Shown piece by piece: positions 4,579-24,247 of a DNA stretch of 28,487 nucleotides (within the stretch, counting starts at the first letter, position 1; each line of letters begins with the position of its first letter). The position numbers and the translations under genes are program-made. The stretch is from the IMG/VR virus record IMGVR_UViG_3300037180_000098, positions 1 through 28,487 of that record. One strand, given 5' to 3'. Below the pieces are notes generated by a model that was not told the origin of the DNA, did not search any database, and saw only the letters and a program-made list of their open reading frames with translations. The stretch is from a virus.

Positions 4579-5520
4579 TTAGAAGGCGCTCGATGATGGC
4601 GGGACAAAAGGAGTGCCGCCAAAATTTATGAGGTTATTTACCGCAGTCCCGTTTGCTTGAACTCTGCCACCGCACGCGGTCATTGTTTTGTCACAGCCCG
4701 CAATGACGCTGAATGTGTCGCCAGACTCGACAGGCAGCAGCCATGGATTCATCAAGGTCAAGTTCCCTGATGCATGCAACTTGACTGTTTGGCTGAGTCC
4801 AACATTGTTGCCGGCGGTGCATGTGACAACACCTTCAGTGAAGTAGCCTGCTGCTTGCGAGAAGGCACTGACGGGCAATAGCACGTACTGCGTGCTTCCA
4901 CTTTTCGCTGTGAAAGCTACGGTATAGTTCGCAGCGCTGAGCGTGCAGTTCGAGTCGCAGAAGCTCCACGGGCAAGCTGGCTGAAACGTCCTGTTAGGGA
5001 CCTTCTGGTTTGCCAGATAGAGCGGATCGGCGCACTCAAATTCAACCTTGACGCGGTTGATAGCCTTCACCGAAGTGATAGTGCCTTGAAACTTCGTCTC
5101 GATGCCGCCAGCGGGGATTGTCCCGTATAGCCCAGCGGGAAAGTAAGCTGTGTAGACTGTGATCGAGGCAGCATCAAACAAACCGTTTGCAGCAGCCGCC
5201 AAGATGCCTGTCGATGCCAGACCGGGATACGTCGTAGTGGGCTGCGGCACGCAAACAAGATCCATCGTGTTTGCCTTGAAATCAAAAGCAGCCTCACTCG
5301 TAAAGACTCCACGCTGCCAGCGCCCGTACTGAGTCGCTTTGAAAGTCGTCGTAGCGCCCGTCCACCCAGAAGTACCTGAAGCGACAGTCACATCCAACTG
5401 CCCTTCAGTGGCATACATCACTGTTCCTGTAGGCAGAGTGATGGCAAAGAGGTCGGCCTTCATGCAGTTCTTGTTGGCAGCGAGCCAAGCAATCAGCGTG
5501 CTAGACATGAGTCTTTTCAT
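4579..5520 (-). CDS. DUF2163 / phage BR0599-like tail-tip protein
   Basis: The 313-residue product matches the DUF2163 plus BR0599 family (GTA gp13-like). The N-terminus (MKRLMSSTLIAWLAANKNCMKADLF) is typical. The C-terminal half carries the Cys-rich signature: ACPWSFCDSNCTL near residue 185, then AGCDKTMTACGGRV, and the family ending INFGGTPFVPP. In gene transfer agents and related siphoviruses this protein is a hub of the tail tip that positions the peptidase; in some, paired cysteines bind an iron-sulphur cluster, and the cysteines here would permit this. It lies between DUF2460 and NlpC/P60 genes as expected. An internal ATG four codons in is an alternative start; neither has a strong ribosome site (GGAAA upstream of the first). 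Confidence 0.85.
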   Translation of the reverse strand: MKRLMSSTLIAWLAANKNCMKADLFAITLPTGTVMYATEGQLDVTVASGTSGWTGATTTFKATQYGRWQRGVFTSEAAFDFKANTMDLVCVPQPTTTYPGLASTGILAAAANGLFDAASITVYTAYFPAGLYGTIPAGGIETKFQGTITSVKAINRVKVEFECADPLYLANQKVPNRTFQPACPWSFCDSNCTLSAANYTVAFTAKSGSTQYVLLPVSAFSQAAGYFTEGVVTCTAGNNVGLSQTVKLHASGNLTLMNPWLLPVESGDTFSVIAGCDKTMTACGGRVQANGTAVNNLINFGGTPFVPPSSSAF

Positions 5521-5554: not shown

Positions 5555-6217
5555 TCAGACAAATTCGCTGCTGAACTTGATTGACGAGAAGTCCCACTGA
5601 TCGGTGCTGCTGTTGATCGTGTAAGAACGAGTCGCGTCTACCGTGTCCTCAGAGAAGCGGCAGAGGAAGTAGAAGTTCCCAGTCCACTGAAGAGTTGCGT
5701 TGTTCGCTGGTGCCGTAGTGAACGTAACCACGCCAGTGCTCGACACAGATGCAGGAACAACCCCAGAGCCGTTGACTTGCACGAGGATGCTGCCGTTCAG
5801 ATTTTGAATAAGATCCCAAGCCACTCCGCCAATGCTGCGCGCGAGCTGAAACTGAGTCGAGACTCCATCTCCGGATGCGCCCATTGGTGAAGCAGCGCCT
5901 GCTGTGACGTTCAACATTCCTGAGTTCCCATACGCAACGCTGTTGTCTTGCGGATCAGTGAACAGGAATAGTTGATTGCGCCCTTGACACGCCATCATCG
6001 TTCCCAAGAATGCAGCGACCGTAGAAGAGACCGCAGACTCATTGCCCGTGATGCGGTCCATGTCGAATTCAAAATCCCACAGCGCGTAGGGCGTCATCGA
6101 GACAGAAGCGTTTCCCCTACCTGCTGCGACTTTTTGAAGCACGGTATTGAAGTTCGGAGATTTCGCCAGTCCCTTTGCCATAGAAAGCGGCAACGTCGGC
6201 ATGATGGTGTAGGACAT
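5555..6217 (-). CDS. DUF2460 family distal tail protein
   Basis: The 220-residue product has the layout of DUF2460 (GTA gp12-like) proteins: an N-terminal LPLSMAKGLAKSPNFNTVLQ stretch, a central domain around FEFDMDRITGNESAV and FLGTMMACQGRNQLFLFTDPQDNSV, and a C-terminal beta-rich part with ILVQVNGSGVVPASVSSTG. Family members form a ring at the end of the tail tube that joins tube and hub. Its place directly after the tape measure gene and before the DUF2163-like gene agrees. The ATG is 8 bases beyond the tape measure stop. The N-terminal part diverges from the commonest versions of the family, so the call rests partly on gene order. Confidence 0.75.
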   Translation of the reverse strand: MSYTIMPTLPLSMAKGLAKSPNFNTVLQKVAAGRGNASVSMTPYALWDFEFDMDRITGNESAVSSTVAAFLGTMMACQGRNQLFLFTDPQDNSVAYGNSGMLNVTAGAASPMGASGDGVSTQFQLARSIGGVAWDLIQNLNGSILVQVNGSGVVPASVSSTGVVTFTTAPANNATLQWTGNFYFLCRFSEDTVDATRSYTINSSTDQWDFSSIKFSSEFV

Positions 6218-6224
6218 GATTGCC

Positions 6225-8327
6225 TTACTTGTTCATCTTTCGGAGTTGGTGTGACACATGCTTGTTGATAACTGACGAGTGCTTGGTCAAAACACGTTCC
6301 ATTCCTTCGGCGTCCATAGCCGTGGCATGAATGTGGACGTGGGCGTGAACCTGTTTGCTGCTGCTGCCCTTTCCCTCTGACGCGTTTACCCGGTCAGTCA
6401 AAGCCTTGGTGACTACTGTTTCTCCACCATGACCGATGATGGGAACGGCCCCGGCACCCGGAATCGTGCCGCCCTGCTCAAACGCCAGAGCCTTAGCAAA
6501 GGCGATGCCGCCTTCTGCAATCGCAATTGGCATCGGCGTCCCCTGAGCCAACGCACTGGAAAACTCCGCAGCACCAGCCTTTTCCGCGTTCATCAACTTC
6601 CAGCGGATAAAATTCGAGATGGCGTCCTCAACAATTTCCTTTCCAATCTGCTTCATTGCAGCAGCCATGCTCTTGGCTTCGACGAGGGTCTTCGCCAGTC
6701 CCTGCGAGAAGCTGTCGTTGAACTTCGTCACGCTGGCTTGCAGGGTGCTGTTGATGCTCTGGGCAAGAGTCGGAACGTCCTTGTTCATTTCGCGGAAGAA
6801 CTGCGTCCACGTCGGATACAACTTTGCGAGTTGAACGTTCAGCCCGGCGACCTGAGTTGTGGCATTCGTCGTCGCAACCTTCACATCGACGGCGAATTTA
6901 TTGTTGATCGCGTCCAGTGATGCCATCTTCACAGCAGCATCGTTCAGGAACGCAATGTAGGTCGGATCAGCCTTGTTTCCGCCATTTGCGCCGAGGACGT
7001 TTGCGGCAGCGCGATTGTCGGCATCAATTTCTTCCTGCACCGCCCGGCGCTTGGCAGCTACTTCCTGAGCCAGAGCAGCCAGACGAATCCCGGACTCACG
7101 CTGAACAAGTGCAATCTGCTGCTGGACAGCCTCACGGCGGCTGATCAAACCAAGTTCAGACGCATTGGCGATAGCGCCCTTCTGCTGGTCCAAAGATGCC
7201 TTGGCAGATTCCGCTTGGTCCGCGAAACTCTGTGTTGCTGTCTCCAACTCTTCCTGCGCTGCCTTCTTCTGGGTATCCGCTACAGCCTTGAAGAAGTCTT
7301 CTGTTTGGCTCAGCGCTTCATTGTTGTTTGATCCTTTGTAGGCCGCGCGCTGGGCGCGCCCAAAAGCCACAAAGTCTTCCATGCCCTTCAGGACAGCCGC
7401 GTTGTACTCTTTCTGGCGCTCAGTCGTATCCATGAGCGTGTCTTTGATGGCTTTGTCTGTGGCTTCTTTCTTCTCAGCAGCAACTGCCGCTGTGTTCCGT
7501 TTACGAAGTTCTACTTCCGTCTGCAGCAGGCCGACGAAGGCATTCTGAGCATCCAAGTCAGACTGAGTAGAACCGTGCCCGCCTTGCTGCGCCTCCATCA
7601 ACTCCTTCATCTTGATGGCGGAGTTCAGCGTGCCTTGAAGGAGATCACCCGCATCTTTGTCCTTGTGCTTTTCCAGCAGTTGCGTGTACTGCGACTCAAA
7701 ATTCTCCAGCGCGTCCTTTACGCCGGTCACACCAACTTTGCTTTCGTACCAGTGCTCAGTAATGTCGGCCAGTGTCTTGTCAGCAGCAGAAGCAAGAGTG
7801 CGGAACTGGTCCGCCAGTTCGTTCATGCTCTGGTGGTCGATCAGCACAAGCTGCTTGTGTAACGCAGCCAAGTGATCCCCACGGAGTTCATCAGCCCGGA
7901 TGCCCGCCTGTAGCAGTTTGTCGTCGAGCTTGTTAAAAGCTTCCTGAGCAGTGGTGCCGAAATTAGCCTGAGCGAGCGCCAGCTTATGGGCTTCCTCTGC
8001 AACCTGCTTCTGATGCTCGATGAGCTTGTCGATGACGACGATGGCAGCCACTATGCCAATGATCGGGAGCATCATTGCAAACGCGGCACCCACGCCCGGA
8101 ATGGCAGCGATAAGGCGGGAGAGTTCGCGGGGCAGCGGGATGCCCAACTCATGAGTAAGCAGGCGCACAGACCCGGCAGACTCGCGCATCGAGCCGTCAA
8201 CGGCACCACCAGCCTCGCCGGATTTGTCTTTCAGACCGTCAAGCTCAGACTTGACCTTCCCCATGTCTTCGCGGAATTCTGCTGTTTCCGCTCTGAGCTT
8301 TACGATCAGTGCTCCAACCTCGGACAT
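6225..8327 (-). CDS. Tail tape measure protein
   Basis: The 700-residue product is the longest of the tail block apart from the hub and fibre. It follows the tail chaperone genes directly, the standard place for the tape measure. It opens with an alpha-helical stretch rich in Lys/Glu (VKLRAETAEFREDMGKVKSE). A hydrophobic segment of about 20 residues lies near positions 75-100 (AAFAMMLPIIGIVAAIVVID). Long coiled-coil regions rich in Ala, Gln, Lys and Glu follow. Near residues 630-660 there is a small Gly/Ala-rich segment (AFEQGGTIPGAGAVPIIGHGGE), and then VHAHVHIHATA, both seen in lambda-type tape measures. The protein sets tail length and is ejected ahead of DNA; the hydrophobic segment may enter the host membrane. 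The tail should be of modest length for 700 residues. Confidence 0.9.
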   Translation of the reverse strand: MSEVGALIVKLRAETAEFREDMGKVKSELDGLKDKSGEAGGAVDGSMRESAGSVRLLTHELGIPLPRELSRLIAAIPGVGAAFAMMLPIIGIVAAIVVIDKLIEHQKQVAEEAHKLALAQANFGTTAQEAFNKLDDKLLQAGIRADELRGDHLAALHKQLVLIDHQSMNELADQFRTLASAADKTLADITEHWYESKVGVTGVKDALENFESQYTQLLEKHKDKDAGDLLQGTLNSAIKMKELMEAQQGGHGSTQSDLDAQNAFVGLLQTEVELRKRNTAAVAAEKKEATDKAIKDTLMDTTERQKEYNAAVLKGMEDFVAFGRAQRAAYKGSNNNEALSQTEDFFKAVADTQKKAAQEELETATQSFADQAESAKASLDQQKGAIANASELGLISRREAVQQQIALVQRESGIRLAALAQEVAAKRRAVQEEIDADNRAAANVLGANGGNKADPTYIAFLNDAAVKMASLDAINNKFAVDVKVATTNATTQVAGLNVQLAKLYPTWTQFFREMNKDVPTLAQSINSTLQASVTKFNDSFSQGLAKTLVEAKSMAAAMKQIGKEIVEDAISNFIRWKLMNAEKAGAAEFSSALAQGTPMPIAIAEGGIAFAKALAFEQGGTIPGAGAVPIIGHGGETVVTKALTDRVNASEGKGSSSKQVHAHVHIHATAMDAEGMERVLTKHSSVINKHVSHQLRKMNK

Positions 8328-9780: not shown

Positions 9781-10545
9781 CTACCTTTTCTCCGCTTGAA
9801 TGGCGGCGAAGAATTCGTTCGGGAAAGCACAGCGCGAAACTGACGGCCACTGCTTGTGCTTCCCCAGATAATTTCTCTTCGAGCAAAGATTCTGCCCGTG
9901 GACTCGGCACGCGATGAGCTGTTCCCCGTCGCACGAATCAAGCTGCTTCAGGTGCAGAGCAGCATCGGTAAACGGTCGGTCTTCGCTATCTGTTTCTGGG
10001 AATGAATGCTTTTCCCACCATTGCCGCGTGTAAGCCAGATTCGCACCGTATGCATACGGCTCATGCGGGCTGTCGGGGCTGTAGTGATAGCGATACAGGC
10101 TGCCGTCGTTGTCATTCCAATACAAACTAGAATGGAACCCAGTCACTGCCTTGCCCGTATCCAGCAGCCTCGCGACTTGCTGACTCACGCGATCTGGATG
10201 CTGCCAGTCGTCGTCATCAAAATGGACGATAACGTCTCCCCGCGCGTGCCAGTTGCCTGCGTTCCTAAAAGCGCCGATTGGTCGATGCGGCAAAGACAAG
10301 TACGTGACGCTCTGCCCGTCTACAAGTAGGGCAGCGAATCCGGTGAATCCATCGAGCATCTCAACGCTTTCAGATTTGACGAGCTTGCTTACTCTGAACA
10401 AAAGCTCATCGCTGTCTGAATTGTCGAGAACTACCAACTCCAGCGCGCCCTTGTAGCTTTGGGCGAGAAAGCAATTGAGAGCAGTTCCAGCAAACCTGCC
10501 GTTCGCACTTGGCAGCAACACACTGACGCTTGGCGAAGTCGTCAC
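9781..10545 (-). CDS. Family 2 glycosyltransferase (GT-A fold)
   Basis: The 254-residue product has the marks of family 2 glycosyltransferases. It begins with a nucleotide-binding strand (VSVLLPSANG), then LELVVLDNSD. The GAFRNAGNWHARGD segment (residues 91-104) matches the family's RN.G.....GD signature, and DVIVHFDDDDW holds the metal/UDP-sugar-binding acidic cluster (D110-D113). No transmembrane segment is seen, so it should be cytosolic, moving a sugar from a nucleotide sugar to an unknown acceptor. Start is GTG, overlapping the previous gene's stop as GTGA, so translation is coupled. A sugar-transfer gene between gp10-like and tail tube genes is not part of the core tail block. It may decorate a virion protein such as the neighbouring fibre or tube, or alter a host surface glycan. 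Confidence 0.85.
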   Translation of the reverse strand: MTTSPSVSVLLPSANGRFAGTALNCFLAQSYKGALELVVLDNSDSDELLFRVSKLVKSESVEMLDGFTGFAALLVDGQSVTYLSLPHRPIGAFRNAGNWHARGDVIVHFDDDDWQHPDRVSQQVARLLDTGKAVTGFHSSLYWNDNDGSLYRYHYSPDSPHEPYAYGANLAYTRQWWEKHSFPETDSEDRPFTDAALHLKQLDSCDGEQLIACRVHGQNLCSKRNYLGKHKQWPSVSRCAFPNEFFAAIQAEKR

Positions 10546-18414: not shown

Positions 18415-18428
18415 TGTGACGCTCTCTT
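18415..18428 (-). repeat. 14-bp direct repeat, copy at end of the large terminase gene
   Basis: The - strand reads AAGAGAGCGTCACA and overlaps the end of the large terminase gene by two bases. It matches 13 of 14 bases of the copy at 20857-20870. It lies about 31 bases before the start codon of the HTH gene, a spacing similar to that of the other copy from its gene. Confidence 0.65.
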
Positions 18429-20169
18429 AACTTGAAGTGACTACGAAAAAAGGCTTGGACACCTTGACTTGGTTTTCAGGTGCAGTTGCTCGCGCGAGCG
18501 CCATGATGAGCGAAGCAGGACCGTCTATTTTGTCCCGCTTACGATCACGTGACGGCTTGACGAAGTTCGTTCCTGACTGCGTGTTCCAGCGCAGTGATCC
18601 CATCTGCCATCGCATAACTGGATTGTGCGCATGAGCAAATTCTGAACGGAGGACTTTCCGCATCAATTCTTGACATGGCGCGTTCATGCGAAGATGCGAC
18701 TGCGGAAAAGGAACGAACTTCTCCATCGGGAACTTCGCTTCGCCCAGCATGCGGATAAGTTCGGAACTCCACGCGTCGTCGTAAGCAATTTCTTTCAGGT
18801 TGAATTGCTTATTTATGTCAGCAATCTGCTCCGCGATGTAGCGCACATCGGTGAGATTGCCTGGGGTTGGTACGATGAAGCCGTCATCACGCCACAAATC
18901 GTACGGGACGCGATCACGCTTTACGCGATCAGCGATGTTGTCAGCAGGGCACCAGAAGAATTCAAGAACGTTCCACTTCTCGGTAGACGTTAGCGGCGGA
19001 AACAGCAGCACTAAAGAAGACGTGTCCAACTTCGGCGCCAAGTCGATGCCACCGAAGCACAACCGACCTTCTAGCTGTTCGAGAGCTTCTCTCCGCAGTC
19101 GCTTGGGATCGGGATGTGTTGCTATATCCTCGCGACAGCACGCGTCCCACTTTTCGATTTCAATCGCGGGATCTGCTGACTCAGACGACCAGATGTTGAG
19201 TGCGAAGCGTTTGAACTCACCAAGACTTGTCGGTTTTCCTTGGGCTTCGTTGAACTCCTTCAGGATCTTCTCTTCGTCGAAGAGGTAACCCATCGACGGA
19301 TTAGCTTTGACCCAGTTCTTGGAGTCTTTCCAGTCGTCTTTTGGGTCCATGCAAAAGATGAACGGCGCGAACTCGTCATCAGCGACATGATCGTCGAGAA
19401 TCTTCGTTCCGTACTCGCGCTCTGACCAGCACAGCGAAGTTCCGTCCGCTGAAGCGCCAGCAGTTGTTGTTTCGATCATCAACGGCTGTTTGCGAGTACG
19501 ACCGCCGTAGCGAAGAATGCTGTAGAGACCAGAGCCGCTTTTCCAGCGGTGAAGCTCATCCAAGATGGAGCAACTAACCATCGCTCCGTCTTCAGAACCC
19601 GCTTCGCGCGACATCTTGCTAGCGCGCCCCAAGTCATCGGTGAAGAGGGCGAGAATGTGCGGGTCATTACCAGCGCGATGTATTGTGGTTTTCAGTTCAG
19701 GACTGCGATCTACGAGAGCCGCAGCTTGTTTGAAGGCAGTGTCCGCTTGCTTTGCCGTAGTAGCTGCGACGAACACACGCGCGGAGCGCTCGTTGTCTGC
19801 TATCAGGTGATAAGGCACAAGCGCTGCTGCAAGAGATGTTTTTCCGTTTTTCTTAGCGATCTCAAGGTATGCGCGTCTGAACCTACGCGTGTGATCTGAC
19901 GATCTCTTCCATCCGTAGACCAAATACAAAAAGAACTGCTGCCACGGCATTAGAACCATCGTGTCGTTGTCTTGGTTCTCTGGCGGAACGCAAAACATCT
20001 CGATGAAATCAATCGGATGTTGACCTGCTTCTGGATCGAAATAGAGGCCGCGTTCATGCGCGTGCTCTAAGTCGCGCCGGTGTCGCTCGATTACTTTTCT
20101 GATCCACGGGCCGCATAGAACTGCTCCAGAAAGACAGTCCTCCATGTAGCGTTCGGCAATGCTTAACAT
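18427..20169 (-). CDS. terL: Terminase large subunit (HK97-like)
   Basis: The 580-residue product is a two-domain packaging motor. The ATPase domain has Walker A in IAKKNGKTSLAAAL (about residues 106-112 for KKNGKTS) and Walker B in SCSILDELH (about 201-205, Glu catalytic). The nuclease domain has Asp in CFGGIDLAPKLD (376), AYDDAW (464) and IDGPASLIMALARA (549), the expected metal ligands. TTTAGASADGTSL is the coupling motif region. It pumps DNA into the prohead and cuts it. The ATG at 20169 has GGAG eight bases upstream; a GTG at 20178 would add three residues but lacks a proper site. The start overlaps the upstream HNH homing-like gene by 7 bases, so the two are translationally linked. It is separated from the small terminase by the capsid gene and that HNH gene. 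Confidence 0.95.
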   Translation of the reverse strand: MLSIAERYMEDCLSGAVLCGPWIRKVIERHRRDLEHAHERGLYFDPEAGQHPIDFIEMFCVPPENQDNDTMVLMPWQQFFLYLVYGWKRSSDHTRRFRRAYLEIAKKNGKTSLAAALVPYHLIADNERSARVFVAATTAKQADTAFKQAAALVDRSPELKTTIHRAGNDPHILALFTDDLGRASKMSREAGSEDGAMVSCSILDELHRWKSGSGLYSILRYGGRTRKQPLMIETTTAGASADGTSLCWSEREYGTKILDDHVADDEFAPFIFCMDPKDDWKDSKNWVKANPSMGYLFDEEKILKEFNEAQGKPTSLGEFKRFALNIWSSESADPAIEIEKWDACCREDIATHPDPKRLRREALEQLEGRLCFGGIDLAPKLDTSSLVLLFPPLTSTEKWNVLEFFWCPADNIADRVKRDRVPYDLWRDDGFIVPTPGNLTDVRYIAEQIADINKQFNLKEIAYDDAWSSELIRMLGEAKFPMEKFVPFPQSHLRMNAPCQELMRKVLRSEFAHAHNPVMRWQMGSLRWNTQSGTNFVKPSRDRKRDKIDGPASLIMALARATAPENQVKVSKPFFVVTSS

Positions 20170-20828
20170 AGAGCACACTCCGCACTCTTGATGCCCCTGT
20201 TAACATGCCAGCGTGTGTGGCAAACAAGCAGTCCGCTCTTCTGTCCTCCAGCACGTCCTGCTTTAGCAAGCGCTCCGGGAATAGAGGCTGTCTTAGTACC
20301 GCCTGCACCACCAGCAGCCTGCTTCTGCTCACGAGTCTGAGCAAGCGCTCCCTTGCTTCCTGATGCTTGACGCTGTTCGAGAGTAAGTCCACAAATTCCC
20401 AGCTTGTTCTCTTTGTTCTTTGTTCCCTGCGTCTTGCCGCCGATTTTGCCGCCAGCACGCCCTGCTTTTGCTTGATGCTCATGCGTTCTCAGCAGTGCAA
20501 ACGCCGTCTGAGCGCGCGCATACACCTCTGCAAGGTACGGCAACTCATCTGCCCTGATGTCAGCGGCGCGTGCGCGCGCCATCAAGCAAACAGTCATCTG
20601 ATACGATGCGCATTCCGGCACAGCGAGTGCGAGCAGATAGTGAGCATATAAATGCTCTTGGTAGCTGCACGGAATCTTATTGTCGGGTGCATCTACAAAG
20701 TCTGGAAAATCCGCTTGTGGCAAAGCGTGATGCTTCTGATCTGAGCCTGTCATTGACTCGACATGGGACCAGTAGCGACTGAAGTCTCTATACGGGTATC
20801 TATCTTGCAGAATTGTTCGTAGATCCAT
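20163..20828 (-). CDS. HNH homing endonuclease-like protein with Gly-rich DNA-binding repeats
   Basis: The 221-residue product has an HNH-type signature at residues 33-63: HHALPQADFP (H33-H34), DNKIPCS (N50), then QEHLYAHYLLAL (H59, H63), the pattern of phage GIY/HNH homing nucleases. After about residue 120 there are short basic Gly/Ala repeats (KAGRAGGKIGGKTQG, ASGSKGALAQTREQKQAAGGAGG), like NUMOD-type DNA-binding repeats. The end is HTRWHVNRGI...CALC, a His/Cys motif common at the C-terminus of such proteins. Homing nucleases cut related genomes and spread by repair, often sitting beside terminase or capsid genes. Here it lies between a terminator and the large terminase gene, overlapping the latter. 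It could alternatively serve packaging. Ribosome site GGGAGAG. Activity unproven. Confidence 0.7.
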   Translation of the reverse strand: MDLRTILQDRYPYRDFSRYWSHVESMTGSDQKHHALPQADFPDFVDAPDNKIPCSYQEHLYAHYLLALAVPECASYQMTVCLMARARAADIRADELPYLAEVYARAQTAFALLRTHEHQAKAGRAGGKIGGKTQGTKNKENKLGICGLTLEQRQASGSKGALAQTREQKQAAGGAGGTKTASIPGALAKAGRAGGQKSGLLVCHTRWHVNRGIKSAECALC

Positions 20829-20856
20829 TTAGTCTCTCCCGCTATGGACGCGAAAG

Positions 20857-20870
20857 TGTGACGCCCTCTT
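20857..20870 (-). repeat. 14-bp direct repeat, copy upstream of the HNH homing-like gene
   Basis: The - strand reads AAGAGGGCGTCACA, matching 13 of 14 bases of the copy at 18415-18428, about 28 bases before the start codon of the HNH homing-like gene. The two copies are in the same orientation and frame the HNH-terL pair. It also touches the tail of the capsid terminator. Confidence 0.65.
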
Positions 20871-20906
20871 GAAAAAGCAAAAGCCCCAAGCGGTTTGCTT
20901 GAGGCT
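20870..20906 (-). terminator. Intrinsic terminator after major capsid gene
   Basis: On the - strand AGCCTCAAGC (20906-20897), a five-base loop, then GCTTGGGGCT (20891-20882) form a 10-bp stem with one A-C mismatch, followed by TTTGCTTTTTC. It begins 30 bases after the capsid stop codon. This should end much of the capsid transcript and lower expression of the genes that follow. Confidence 0.8.
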
Positions 20907-20936
20907 CTTGTGTGCAATCAGCAGGAGAGGTACTGA

Positions 20937-22193
20937 TTACCCATTCGTGTTTAGCTGGACCACAGCTTCGGACAGAACAACGCGCTGATCAGTTCGGCGG
21001 TAACCGAGGATCACCGTTTGTCCGTTCAGAGCCGCAACTTGGTCGAGGACCTTGACGCGGATGTTGCTGTCGCCACGGTCGCCGATGACTGCGAACGCAT
21101 TGAAGTCCCCAAACATCCAGCTCCCCTGAGTAGAGGGAGACGAGATATAAGTCGGCATCTCAGCAGAGAACGCGACCGGATAACCGAACAAACGCGCGGA
21201 ACCGTCTGGATCGAACGTCACAAACGTCTGATACTGCGAAGCCGCGATTTGCGCCTTCAACAGACGGTTGAACTCGGGACGCGATACCAACCACTTAGCG
21301 CGGTTGTAGTACGCGGCATTCAACGAGCCCATCGTGTCAATGATGGGGTTGATGCCCAGAGTCGCAGCGCCACCAGAAATGCTGGCGCCGGTTGCGGTCG
21401 TGCCGTTGCCCAGATAGCCCTGAGGCTGACCGGAGCCAGAACCGTTGGTGAAGAGATACTCTTCTTCAACAGTGATGATGCGGCCCAGTTCAGCAGTCAG
21501 GAAGTCGGCGCAAGCTTTGCTGTCCTGCAACAGTTCCCAAGAAGCATAGATCGAATCGCCGACTACATAAGCCTGCAACTCGGTCGTCGCGAACTGAGGA
21601 ACGTTGGTAGCGAATGCGTTCGTGCCCGAGTTGTTGGACTCGGCCTTGATCGCAGCAGTCGCTTTCGCGCTCTGGTAAGGGAGATTCAAGTTCATGCTGG
21701 TCGTGATGACTTTGCTCAACTTACGAGCAGAGCATTCAACGATAGCCAGATTCGGAATCGACGGATCGGTCTCGATTGGAACCAGCGCGGAACCGTCAGC
21801 AGTCGTTCCACCTTCGCCCAACGCTGCATTCTGGAATGCAAACGCTTCAAAGCCGTGCTTGCCGGACTTCAGAGCTTTCCAAAAGTTGTCGGTGTATTCA
21901 GGCTGCAACTGAGTCGCAGCGCGATAACCGCCCAGCGCGTAAAACTTCTTTGCGGCCACGTCAGCCGAAATCACAGCAGACTGACGAGGAGCGCCAACTT
22001 CAGTGCGGCCCTTTGCAATCGCTGAGAAGCGGGTAATGTTGCTGTTGATCTGGTCGAGTTCCGCAGTGAGGTTCTTGAACTGCTCCTCTTCGGTCGCGGT
22101 GAGCTGGACCTTTGCTTCGGTCGCTTTCTTGAGCATCAGTTCCTGTTGGTCGAGGATTTCGCTCTTGCGTTTGTTCAGTACGGTGCTGTCCAT
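20937..22193 (-). CDS. Major capsid protein, HK97 fold
   Basis: The 418-residue product fits HK97-type capsid proteins. Residues 1-70 are a charged coiled coil (KRKSEILDQQELMLKKATEAK; EEEQFKNLTAELDQINSNITR), the delta domain that acts as internal scaffold and is normally removed by the prohead protease. The mature part begins somewhat after residue 100. It includes GTTADGSALVPIETDPSI, CADFLTAELGRIITVEEEYLFTNGSGSGQPQGYL (the backbone-helix and following loop signature), and WLVSRPEFNRLLKAQ; the end has MFGDFNAFAVIGDRGDSNIRV. ATG start with AAGGA nine bases upstream. A terminator follows. In most HK97-like genomes this gene comes after portal and protease; here it lies between small and large terminase genes. 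Confidence 0.92.
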   Translation of the reverse strand: MDSTVLNKRKSEILDQQELMLKKATEAKVQLTATEEEQFKNLTAELDQINSNITRFSAIAKGRTEVGAPRQSAVISADVAAKKFYALGGYRAATQLQPEYTDNFWKALKSGKHGFEAFAFQNAALGEGGTTADGSALVPIETDPSIPNLAIVECSARKLSKVITTSMNLNLPYQSAKATAAIKAESNNSGTNAFATNVPQFATTELQAYVVGDSIYASWELLQDSKACADFLTAELGRIITVEEEYLFTNGSGSGQPQGYLGNGTTATGASISGGAATLGINPIIDTMGSLNAAYYNRAKWLVSRPEFNRLLKAQIAASQYQTFVTFDPDGSARLFGYPVAFSAEMPTYISSPSTQGSWMFGDFNAFAVIGDRGDSNIRVKVLDQVAALNGQTVILGYRRTDQRVVLSEAVVQLNTNG

Positions 22194-22318
22194 GATGTGT
22201 GAGTTCCTTGTGTGCCCCTGTTTTCGGATCGACGGACACGAATTCAGTCAGGCAGCCCCTTCATCGGAAACGGCCTCATATATCGGTCCAGTAATCTTTT
22301 TCTGGTAAGAGCGCTGGC

Positions 22319-22771
22319 CTAGTTGACGGTTTCGGGCGGAGTGATCGACTCTGCTGTAGGCTGCGGAACTGGACCCGAAGGTGCAGAACGCTTGAGAAAC
22401 TTATCGAGTTTCGACTCTTTCGGCTTTTCTACTGCAACTTTGCTGCGATCTGCCGGATTCATGGCGAAGCGACTAGTGAGCGCAATAAGCGAAGAGACTT
22501 CCGAGCGATTTATTGTGTCGTCTCGCATCTTGCAAACAAGACGAACTAATAGCTCAAAAGCTGTGCGATCAGACTGGAAGCAGACCCCCGGCAGCATTTG
22601 CTTGCATAACTCGCGCCAGATTCGTTTCTGATCTACGCTCAAATATGATGGCGGATTTCCGAGCGGCTTACTGCTGCCGGTTTCTGGCTCGTTGGCGCGC
22701 GCGCGCTCTGGATGGCGGATGAAGCTGCCTTCTGCGTCTAGAACAGCAGTCGGTTTTCTGATCTGTGGCAT
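22319..22771 (-). CDS. terS: Terminase small subunit, P27 family
   Basis: The 150-residue product (ATG at 22771) resembles P27/Terminase_4 small subunits. GNPPSYLSVDQKRIWRELCKQMLPGVC is the family core, then DRTAFELLVRLVCKMRDD, and SSLIALTSRFAMNPADRSKV, the family's L..FG..P..R.K motif with F/A variation. The N-terminus is basic and probably flexible, the C-terminus Pro-rich. Small subunits recognise the packaging site and stimulate the large subunit. The frame is open ten codons further up (22801), but the ATG at 22771 follows an AGGAG site and matches the family start, so it is preferred. It lies just after the 616-bp non-coding region, a common place for cos or pac. Confidence 0.8.
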   Translation of the reverse strand: MPQIRKPTAVLDAEGSFIRHPERARANEPETGSSKPLGNPPSYLSVDQKRIWRELCKQMLPGVCFQSDRTAFELLVRLVCKMRDDTINRSEVSSLIALTSRFAMNPADRSKVAVEKPKESKLDKFLKRSAPSGPVPQPTAESITPPETVN

Positions 22772-22794
22772 GACGTGGAACTCTCCTACACAAT

Positions 22795-22808
22795 GGCTCA
22801 AAAAGCAC
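22795..22808 (-). repeat. Recurrent leader element, copy upstream of terS
   Basis: The - strand reads GTGCTTTTTGAGCC, an exact 14-base match to the copy before the small membrane protein gene (24609 region) and a 10-base match (TTTTTGAGCC) to the one at 11087. It lies 23-37 bases before the terS ATG, with the GGAGAG ribosome site between. Confidence 0.6.
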
Positions 22809-23108
22809 GTCAGGACCTGGCCGGGAACGGCTCGTGAAGTGGAGTTATGTGCAAAAACCGGGCGCGTCGGTCTTCAGGCATGTTCGCCTCAGAGATGCGA
22901 GGCGGCACGGGGCGTCGATTGTACGAACGGTAGGGCCTGCGCGGGGTGTCGAACGCTCAGCAACAACTTCCTTGCGTCCAGCAGGCTCCTATTGAGCGGG
23001 CTGGTGCTTCTGCTGCTGCATCTAAGTGCTTGGCGCTGTCGCGCTTGTCGGCTGATGGAATGTCACTGAGCTTTCATCGCGACTGTAGCTGTTGCTCGAC
23101 TAAGCTAC

Positions 23109-23133: not shown

Positions 23134-23217
23134 TCGTGTGCTAGCTCTCTTGCACGCCTGAGTGTTTTTGGTTTGCTCTACCCTGCCTCCGCTTTGGTCG
23201 TTCATAAAGCGAACGGT

Positions 23218-23250
23218 CAGGCAGACAGGCGCTATCTGACTGTCTGTCTG
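23218..23250. repeat. Inverted repeat CAGGCAGACAG / CTGTCTGTCTG
   Basis: Eleven-base arms with one mismatch (which could form a G-T pair) and an 11-base loop. The right arm is itself a CTGT tandem. It could be a hairpin or a protein-binding dyad in the same non-coding region. Confidence 0.5.
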
Positions 23251-23287
23251 CTCTTCTCTTAATCTACATCTACTCTTATTGGTACCG

Positions 23288-23347
23288 CATTTGCTGGATC
23301 ATTTGCGGTCGCATTTGCTGGATCATTTGATACCGCATTTGCGGTCA
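23288..23347. repeat. Five-unit 12-bp phased tandem repeat (CATTTG boxes)
   Basis: CATTTG occurs at 23288, 23300, 23312, 23324 and 23336, exactly 12 bp apart. Units are CATTTGCTGGAT, CATTTGCGGTCG, CATTTGCTGGAT, CATTTGATACCG and CATTTGCGGTCA, so a 24-bp higher-order unit is also visible. The regular hexamers, about one helical turn apart, would put binding sites on nearly the same face of DNA. They resemble iterons or terminase/regulator binding arrays. The array ends 40 bp from the stop of the HTH gene. Confidence 0.75.
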
Positions 23348-23387
23348 GCGATCTCAGTAGAATCAACCAGATGGTGGGAATTCATTG

Positions 23388-23852
23388 CTAGAACTTATTC
23401 CGTAGGGAGTGATGACGTTTTCCGCAGTCGTAGCCAAGTTTCGCAGCTTCAGCGCGCAATCGCCGTGATATTTGACGGACTTGGCTCGATGAAATGCCCA
23501 ATTCCTTAGCGATTTCTTTCGCCTCTATTCCCAAGCGCCATGATTTATATGCGATTGCCGCTTGCAGTTCCATGTACCCGCCTGTTCGCTTTACGACATC
23601 GCGCAAAGCTTTGCTCGATTCCGCCGTCGCTTTCTGCGTAGCTGCTGCGTTGAGCAAAACGAGGCTGAGTGTTGGAGGACACGGAGTAGAGAGGTGATGG
23701 GTAAAATGCCACGCTCTCTCGCGCAGCACCTGGGCAAGCTTCTGATCGTCATTTGCAAACGGAGGAATGTACGGTAAGTGAAAGCTTTTACGTCTTGCCG
23801 TCAAATGAAGATCGTCATCAATACACCAAACAGGATAGTTTCGCATCCACAT
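23388..23852 (-). CDS. HTH DNA-binding protein, coupled to HNH gene
   Basis: The 154-residue product has a C-terminal helix-turn-helix: AKEIAKELGISSSQVRQISRRLRAEAAKLG at about residues 111-140, of the sigma-70 region 4 or transcription-factor type. The preceding helices (TGGYMELQAAIAYKSWRLG) lead into it. The N-terminal 60 residues (MWMRNYPVWCIDDDLHLTARR) are not recognised. It overlaps the HNH stop as TAATG, so the two are co-translated. It is immediately upstream of the repeat array in transcription order, making it a candidate for binding that array as a late-gene activator or packaging-site factor. That link is inference. Alternative: an ordinary phage regulator. Confidence 0.6.
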   Translation of the reverse strand: MWMRNYPVWCIDDDLHLTARRKSFHLPYIPPFANDDQKLAQVLRERAWHFTHHLSTPCPPTLSLVLLNAAATQKATAESSKALRDVVKRTGGYMELQAAIAYKSWRLGIEAKEIAKELGISSSQVRQISRRLRAEAAKLGYDCGKRHHSLRNKF

Positions 23853-24247
23853 TAGCGACCTCTATTCCGCCCTTCGCGCGATGCGGTCGAAACGTCATGA
23901 TGGCGCTTACAAAGGCCGCGACAACGATCTGCATCGAAAAAGGCATCAATTCCAAACGCAGCGACAAGCTCACGAGCGCCTGTTGGAAAGTGGTCAGCAA
24001 CAGTCGCCGCGTGTGGGCAGCCTTCTGGGATAGTGCAGAGAATGTCGCGACGGAATACGGCACGACGCGTGTTCTGCCAGCGCGCGCTGCGATACAGTTT
24101 GCGAACTGAGTCTTGGGCGCGCCAGCTCTCATAATGCGAAGCTTGTTCTTTCTTGACGTTCTCGTGGGAAGCGCAAAATGTCGAGCCGGGGACGGCGCGG
24201 GCGCTACATTGTCCAAAAAGGCAAAGAGATGCAGGCGAAGACGGCAT
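23852..24247 (-). CDS. HNH endonuclease, packaging-associated type
   Basis: The 131-residue product resembles HNH proteins that accompany cos-type terminases. SARWQNTRRAVFRRDILCTIPEGC precedes a DH pair (D85-H86, in TVADHFP), and FDADRCRGLCKRHHDVS carries the last Cys/His pair. The N-terminus has a separate Cys/His cluster (CLFGQCSARAVPGSTFCASH), probably a small zinc knuckle. The middle position normally Asn appears to be Asp/Arg (DADRC), a deviation worth noting. HK97 gp74 and relatives stimulate terminase cutting at cos. Here the gene lies upstream of terS with only the HTH gene and the non-coding repeat region between. Confidence 0.8.
   Translation of the reverse strand: MPSSPASLCLFGQCSARAVPGSTFCASHENVKKEQASHYESWRAQDSVRKLYRSARWQNTRRAVFRRDILCTIPEGCPHAATVADHFPTGARELVAAFGIDAFFDADRCRGLCKRHHDVSTASREGRNRGR

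Follow-up and report, generated by a model that had tools for sequence, protein, structure and literature searches.

Results

The window analysed here, a single virus record of 28,487 bases from an uncultured phage, carries its late genes on the − strand. Read in the late direction, it passes from a DUF1376 replication-type gene through several small genes to an HNH endonuclease gene (23852..24247, −; PHROG HNH matches), which takes a position like that of HK97 gp74 and lies upstream of terS in relatives too, and then to a gene for a 154-aa helix-turn-helix (HTH) protein (23388..23852, −). An array of hexamer boxes starts 46 bp beyond the HTH stop codon, with the late genes downstream of it: after the array come a cos-like block, terS (22319..22801, −; phrog_83, terminase small subunit), with which the proposed late operon begins, the major capsid gene, an HNH-type homing gene, terL, the portal and protease genes, and the tail genes. 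This order agrees with the first-pass annotation, which had placed the array between an HTH/HNH pair and terS.

A few features of the surroundings are worth recording in their own right. The order terS, major capsid, terL, portal, protease (18427-22801) is conserved across the family and is unlike the usual order of terS, terL, portal, protease, capsid; L015 and L033 have terL, portal and protease ahead of HNH, terS and capsid. The HNH/homing-type gene between the capsid gene and terL (20163-20828) is absent from that place in L006, and its relatives are located elsewhere in L005 and L036. A frame among the tail genes (9781-10545) resembles, by eye, a family 2 glycosyltransferase. Where the window has its HTH gene, many relatives have a P-loop frame (GxxGSGKT) within or overlapping the end of the HNH gene, for example L012:7471-7929, L013:5644-6123 and L009:7447-7881.

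The array (23288..23341, −) consists of five exact CATTTG words on the + strand, at 23288, 23300, 23312, 23324 and 23336, in constant 12-bp steps; in the orientation of the late genes the boxes read CAAATG. The units are, in order, CATTTGCTGGAT, CATTTGCGGTCG, CATTTGCTGGAT, CATTTGATACCG and CATTTGCGGTCA, and the alternation of their linkers generates a 24-bp higher-order unit, which Tandem Repeats Finder reports with period 24 and score 93. In + strand order a degenerate sixth unit, TTATTGGTACCG (23276..23287, on the − strand as a feature), precedes the array, with 8/12 bases like CATTTGATACCG by eye. We compared the array with 60 third-order Markov versions of the window, scoring the longest run of any hexamer at fixed spacings of 7-30: the longest run was 2 in 53 simulations and 3 in 7, none of the 60 exceeded 3 boxes, and the observed run is 5. 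Chance is excluded by this simulation as the source of the array. The word itself is not over-represented in the window (14 occurrences found, 18 expected). The exact spacing, the 24-bp unit and the improbability by chance, all claimed from the first reading of the sequence, are thus borne out.

A search with TerL identified as close relatives L006/L205 (IMGVR 3300050821_006085; 89%) and L036/L206 (85%); it also returned L005, which is a short fragment, and some 30 loci at 55-76%. No isolated phage is a close relative of the group, TerL being about 30-34% identical among the best matches listed, and the search for prophage relatives in genome contigs returned only distant terminases (24-41%), so that no host can be assigned. 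The first-pass annotation had proposed looking for the array in related phages, and the outcome is divided. The array is conserved in one relative, L205, with five boxes at 12 bp (5686-5739), and L205 is also the only other carrier of the HTH gene that was found. L036 has neither, and homing-type HNH genes occupy that place; about 20 more distant relatives, those with the upstream region present, likewise have neither the array nor a detectable HTH homologue. The array and the HTH gene therefore share their distribution, as expected of a regulator and a target inherited together, in a small sample of two phages, the window and L205.

Between these two phages, none of the 30 box bases has changed, against 8 of the 30 linker bases (p = 0.005). 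The array forms part of a conserved, apparently non-coding island of 185 bp (23190..23374, −; 82% identity over 196 columns with L006/L205), which also contains the candidate promoter described below and two further unchanged blocks, and which is bordered on its flanks by sequence that cannot be aligned between the window and L006/L205. Towards terS from the array, the island includes the unchanged blocks TACCAATAAGAGTAGATGTAGATT, GAAGAGCAGACAGACAGTCAGATAGCG and CGTTCGCTTTATGAACGACCAAAGCG. The island was not found in phage records, and a search of viral contigs with its inverted-repeat block matched only the known relative. RNA structure is not conserved (z-scores −2.7 and −3.4 in the window, −1.7 and −1.1 in L205), and the Rfam search gave no match.

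Was the array correctly taken as lying in a non-coding region? Probably so, with the qualification that the 12-bp period, being divisible by 3, lets open frames cross it on both strands. Such frames would fit an array that is a short or decayed tandem repeat of coding origin, or that arose by neutral slippage, and that has no regulatory function: the period preserves the frame, the late direction reads ..TANAVSNDPANATANDPANAVPIRVDVD* in the window, with L205 open in this frame up to the same stop, and in the majority of other viral contigs where this box recurs at this spacing it falls in long open frames. Among those contigs, the ones with four boxes, which are unrelated to the window, have their repeats within open frames, and the few with three boxes have only short frames and are otherwise unlike the locus. 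Against a coding origin, the differences between the window and L205 fall on the three codon positions 7, 3 and 6 times (counted by eye), without favouring the third, and the frame is short, at about 35 codons, without an ATG in the window. The linkers, moreover, vary within each array while the boxes do not (mean linker identity 0.39 and 0.36 within the two arrays), whereas coding repeats have near-identical units (1.0 in many of them). We consider an array without regulatory function quite improbable.

The HTH protein, which we propose as the regulator that binds the array, has a C-terminus resembling HTH_23 and Sigma70_r4 with weak scores, and its profile matches are limited to such weak, generic HTH or sigma region 4 hits; among known late-activator families, no DUF722, phrog_1058, phrog_2198, NCBIfam or Pfam match was obtained. 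Homologues were not found by these searches in genome contigs or phage records, and both the viral contigs and a set of 16 related viral records yielded only the one in L205. That homologue is 57% identical overall, with 48 of 61 residues identical in the HTH part and about 43% identity in the remainder, by our own count on the alignments. With both the boxes (0/30 changed) and the HTH domain so well kept, conservation of the DNA word thus tracks that of the DNA-binding domain. The predicted structure of the protein is of low confidence (mean pLDDT 55), with only weak sigma region 4 domain matches, and we excluded it from the evidence.

The position of the array between HNH and terS, where HK97 has its cos, raises the possibility that it forms the terminase-binding part of cos, as one of the first-pass suggestions had it. 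In HK97 the cut precedes terS by 49 bp, and just downstream of it, at +15 to +29, is the one 15-bp site bound by TerS, which contains a T-tract (PMC11331095); in the HK97 record 319 bp separate the end of gp74 from the genome end, and terS starts at base 50. The order HNH, cos, terS is shared, with the HNH gene gp74 on the other side of cos. In its position and T-tract, however, the HK97 site resembles not the array, which lies about 490 bp from terS, but a block some 420 bp away from the array, GACCGACGCGCCCGGTTTTTGCACATAACTCCACTTC (22835..22880, −). In most relatives this block is kept, 40-100 bp ahead of terS, and takes roughly the form GCCCGACGCC..GTTTTT..CACATA, a T-tract preceded by GCCCGACGCC-like sequence; in several relatives the pattern was not found or was off position. 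L036 keeps TerS (76%) and the T-tract block without any array, as about 20 further relatives also lack the array. The contig L026 begins inside the T-tract block (L026:1-20), as a virion end would, in what is a single case. Because the array is absent from relatives whose terminases are closely related and the T-tract block matches the HK97 position and T-tract, the array is probably not cos; we reject its membership of an HK97-type cos, regard a terminase-binding role for it as extremely unlikely, and take the T-tract block as the better cos candidate.

Replication iterons, bound by a phage initiator at an origin, were another of the early suggestions, and the array does resemble the iteron origins of phages and plasmids in its regularly spaced direct repeats; the neighbouring stretch is no more than moderately AT-rich (local GC 0.44-0.46, against about 0.54). 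Iteron-like origins also seem to occur in the family: in L017, eight TGGTCC boxes in 11-bp steps (4775-4857) lie between genes, following a P-loop gene that looks DnaC-like and preceding an AT-rich stretch, and look like an iteron origin. That array, however, is located elsewhere, next to its replication gene, whereas the window array is neither in nor beside one, the DUF1376 gene being about 1.8 kb away with five genes between. Between the window and L006 the boxes are the same, whereas the DUF1376 proteins share just 26% of residues over 93 aa, so that the boxes have been conserved despite diverged replication proteins. The suggestion is left weak by the distance from that gene and by this divergence, and we judge an origin function to be improbable.

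Directly downstream of the array, within a fully conserved, AT-richer block unchanged between the window and L205, lies the hexamer TAGATT (23261..23266, −), 21 bp beyond the last box in the late-gene direction, which we consider a candidate −10 element. With TAGATT (23266-23261) as the −10, the array would span about −87 to −34. Scans for consensus promoters gave no match and no −35, and a terminator scan gave nothing.

Discussion

We propose that the array functions as the operator at a late promoter, from which the HTH protein activates terS and the virion genes; this is the best reading of the locus in our judgement, and one we hold with about even confidence. In this scenario the HTH protein would occupy all five CAAATG boxes in head-to-tail arrangement and, once bound, would recruit RNA polymerase to a promoter with the −10-like TAGATT and no −35 box; transcription from it would turn on the virion genes of the − strand, among them terS, capsid, terL and portal. 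We infer the binding by the HTH protein, the promoter, and activation rather than repression from the co-occurrence of the array with the HTH gene, the preservation of boxes over linkers, the position and geometry of the array, and the precedent of the late activators Ltr and Alt. Among the functions first suggested for the array, that of a late-gene activator array bound by the neighbouring HTH protein is therefore the best supported, with the binding itself still putative. A direct-repeat array does lie between the putative regulator gene and the late genes, upstream of a candidate promoter. Against the operator reading stand the occurrence of the pair in only two phages, a promoter represented by one conserved hexamer, the weak HTH matches, and the failure of the protein to match any late-activator family. 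Relatives without the HTH gene must control their late genes otherwise.

The precedents are close in layout. Ltr of the Staphylococcus phage phi13, a late transcriptional regulator of the LtrC type, activates the late promoter P23, which needs three perfect 18-bp repeats and one partial repeat at the 3' end of ltr, from −107 to −42 (PMC13123087), and we confirmed the phi13 repeat array in the public sequence record. As in the window, the regulator gene lies directly upstream (156 aa for Ltr, 154 aa in the window), the direct repeats are situated at or just after its end and upstream of the −10, and packaging and virion genes follow downstream. The two differ in that the phi13 repeats are 18 bp rather than 12 bp, that the proteins have no detectable relation, phrog_1058 being matched by Ltr only, and that the HNH gene lies downstream of the promoter in phi13 (PMC13123087) and upstream in the window; Ltr activates its late promoter, whereas the HTH protein of the window is presumed to do so. 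Alt of the Lactococcus phage TP901-1 has its binding sites in four imperfect direct repeats that lie at −76 to −32 (PMC13123087), about the same span and distance as in the window, and its gene, that of a late activator, likewise lies upstream of terS; Alt belongs to DUF722 / phrog_2198, however, which the window HTH protein does not match. Our exact-word scan of TP901-1 did not pick out the Alt repeats. Since there is no match of the HTH protein to Ltr (phrog_1058) or to Alt (DUF722, phrog_2198), the protein would be an analogue of these activators and not a member of their families, if the operator reading is right.

The same protein-DNA pair might instead serve accessory genes. The HTH protein could bind the array as a repressor or controller of an accessory 'moron' cassette between HNH and cos, with the late operon outside its control. 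In favour of this, the stretch that holds the HTH gene and the array, along with the DUF7019 and membrane-protein frames of L205, is variable among relatives, and the array is missing from most of the family, unlike what would be expected of a core late switch. In L205 a gene of the DUF7019 / SAVMC3_10250 family (5877-6551) separates the array island from the cos-like block, and hence from terS; the island could act on this gene instead, which makes accessory-gene control a live rival. The window, however, is without the DUF7019 gene, yet keeps the island and the HTH gene with the boxes unchanged, and we consider accessory control unlikely, though still to be reckoned with. A further scenario, which we regard as a long shot, is a lineage-specific insert located between HNH and cos, in which proteins of an undescribed HTH family coat an array of boxes with 12-bp pitch close to cos. 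Such a coat would link the transcription of late genes with packaging, for example by preventing polymerase and terminase from occupying one stretch of DNA together.

Returning to the array as a late operator, such a reading, if true, would set the operator apart from cos in this group of phages, with the T-tract block named as a concrete candidate for the latter. It would also extend the set of phage late activators with a repeat operator by an HTH family unrelated to the others, and would place such an activator in a phage group without a close isolated relative.
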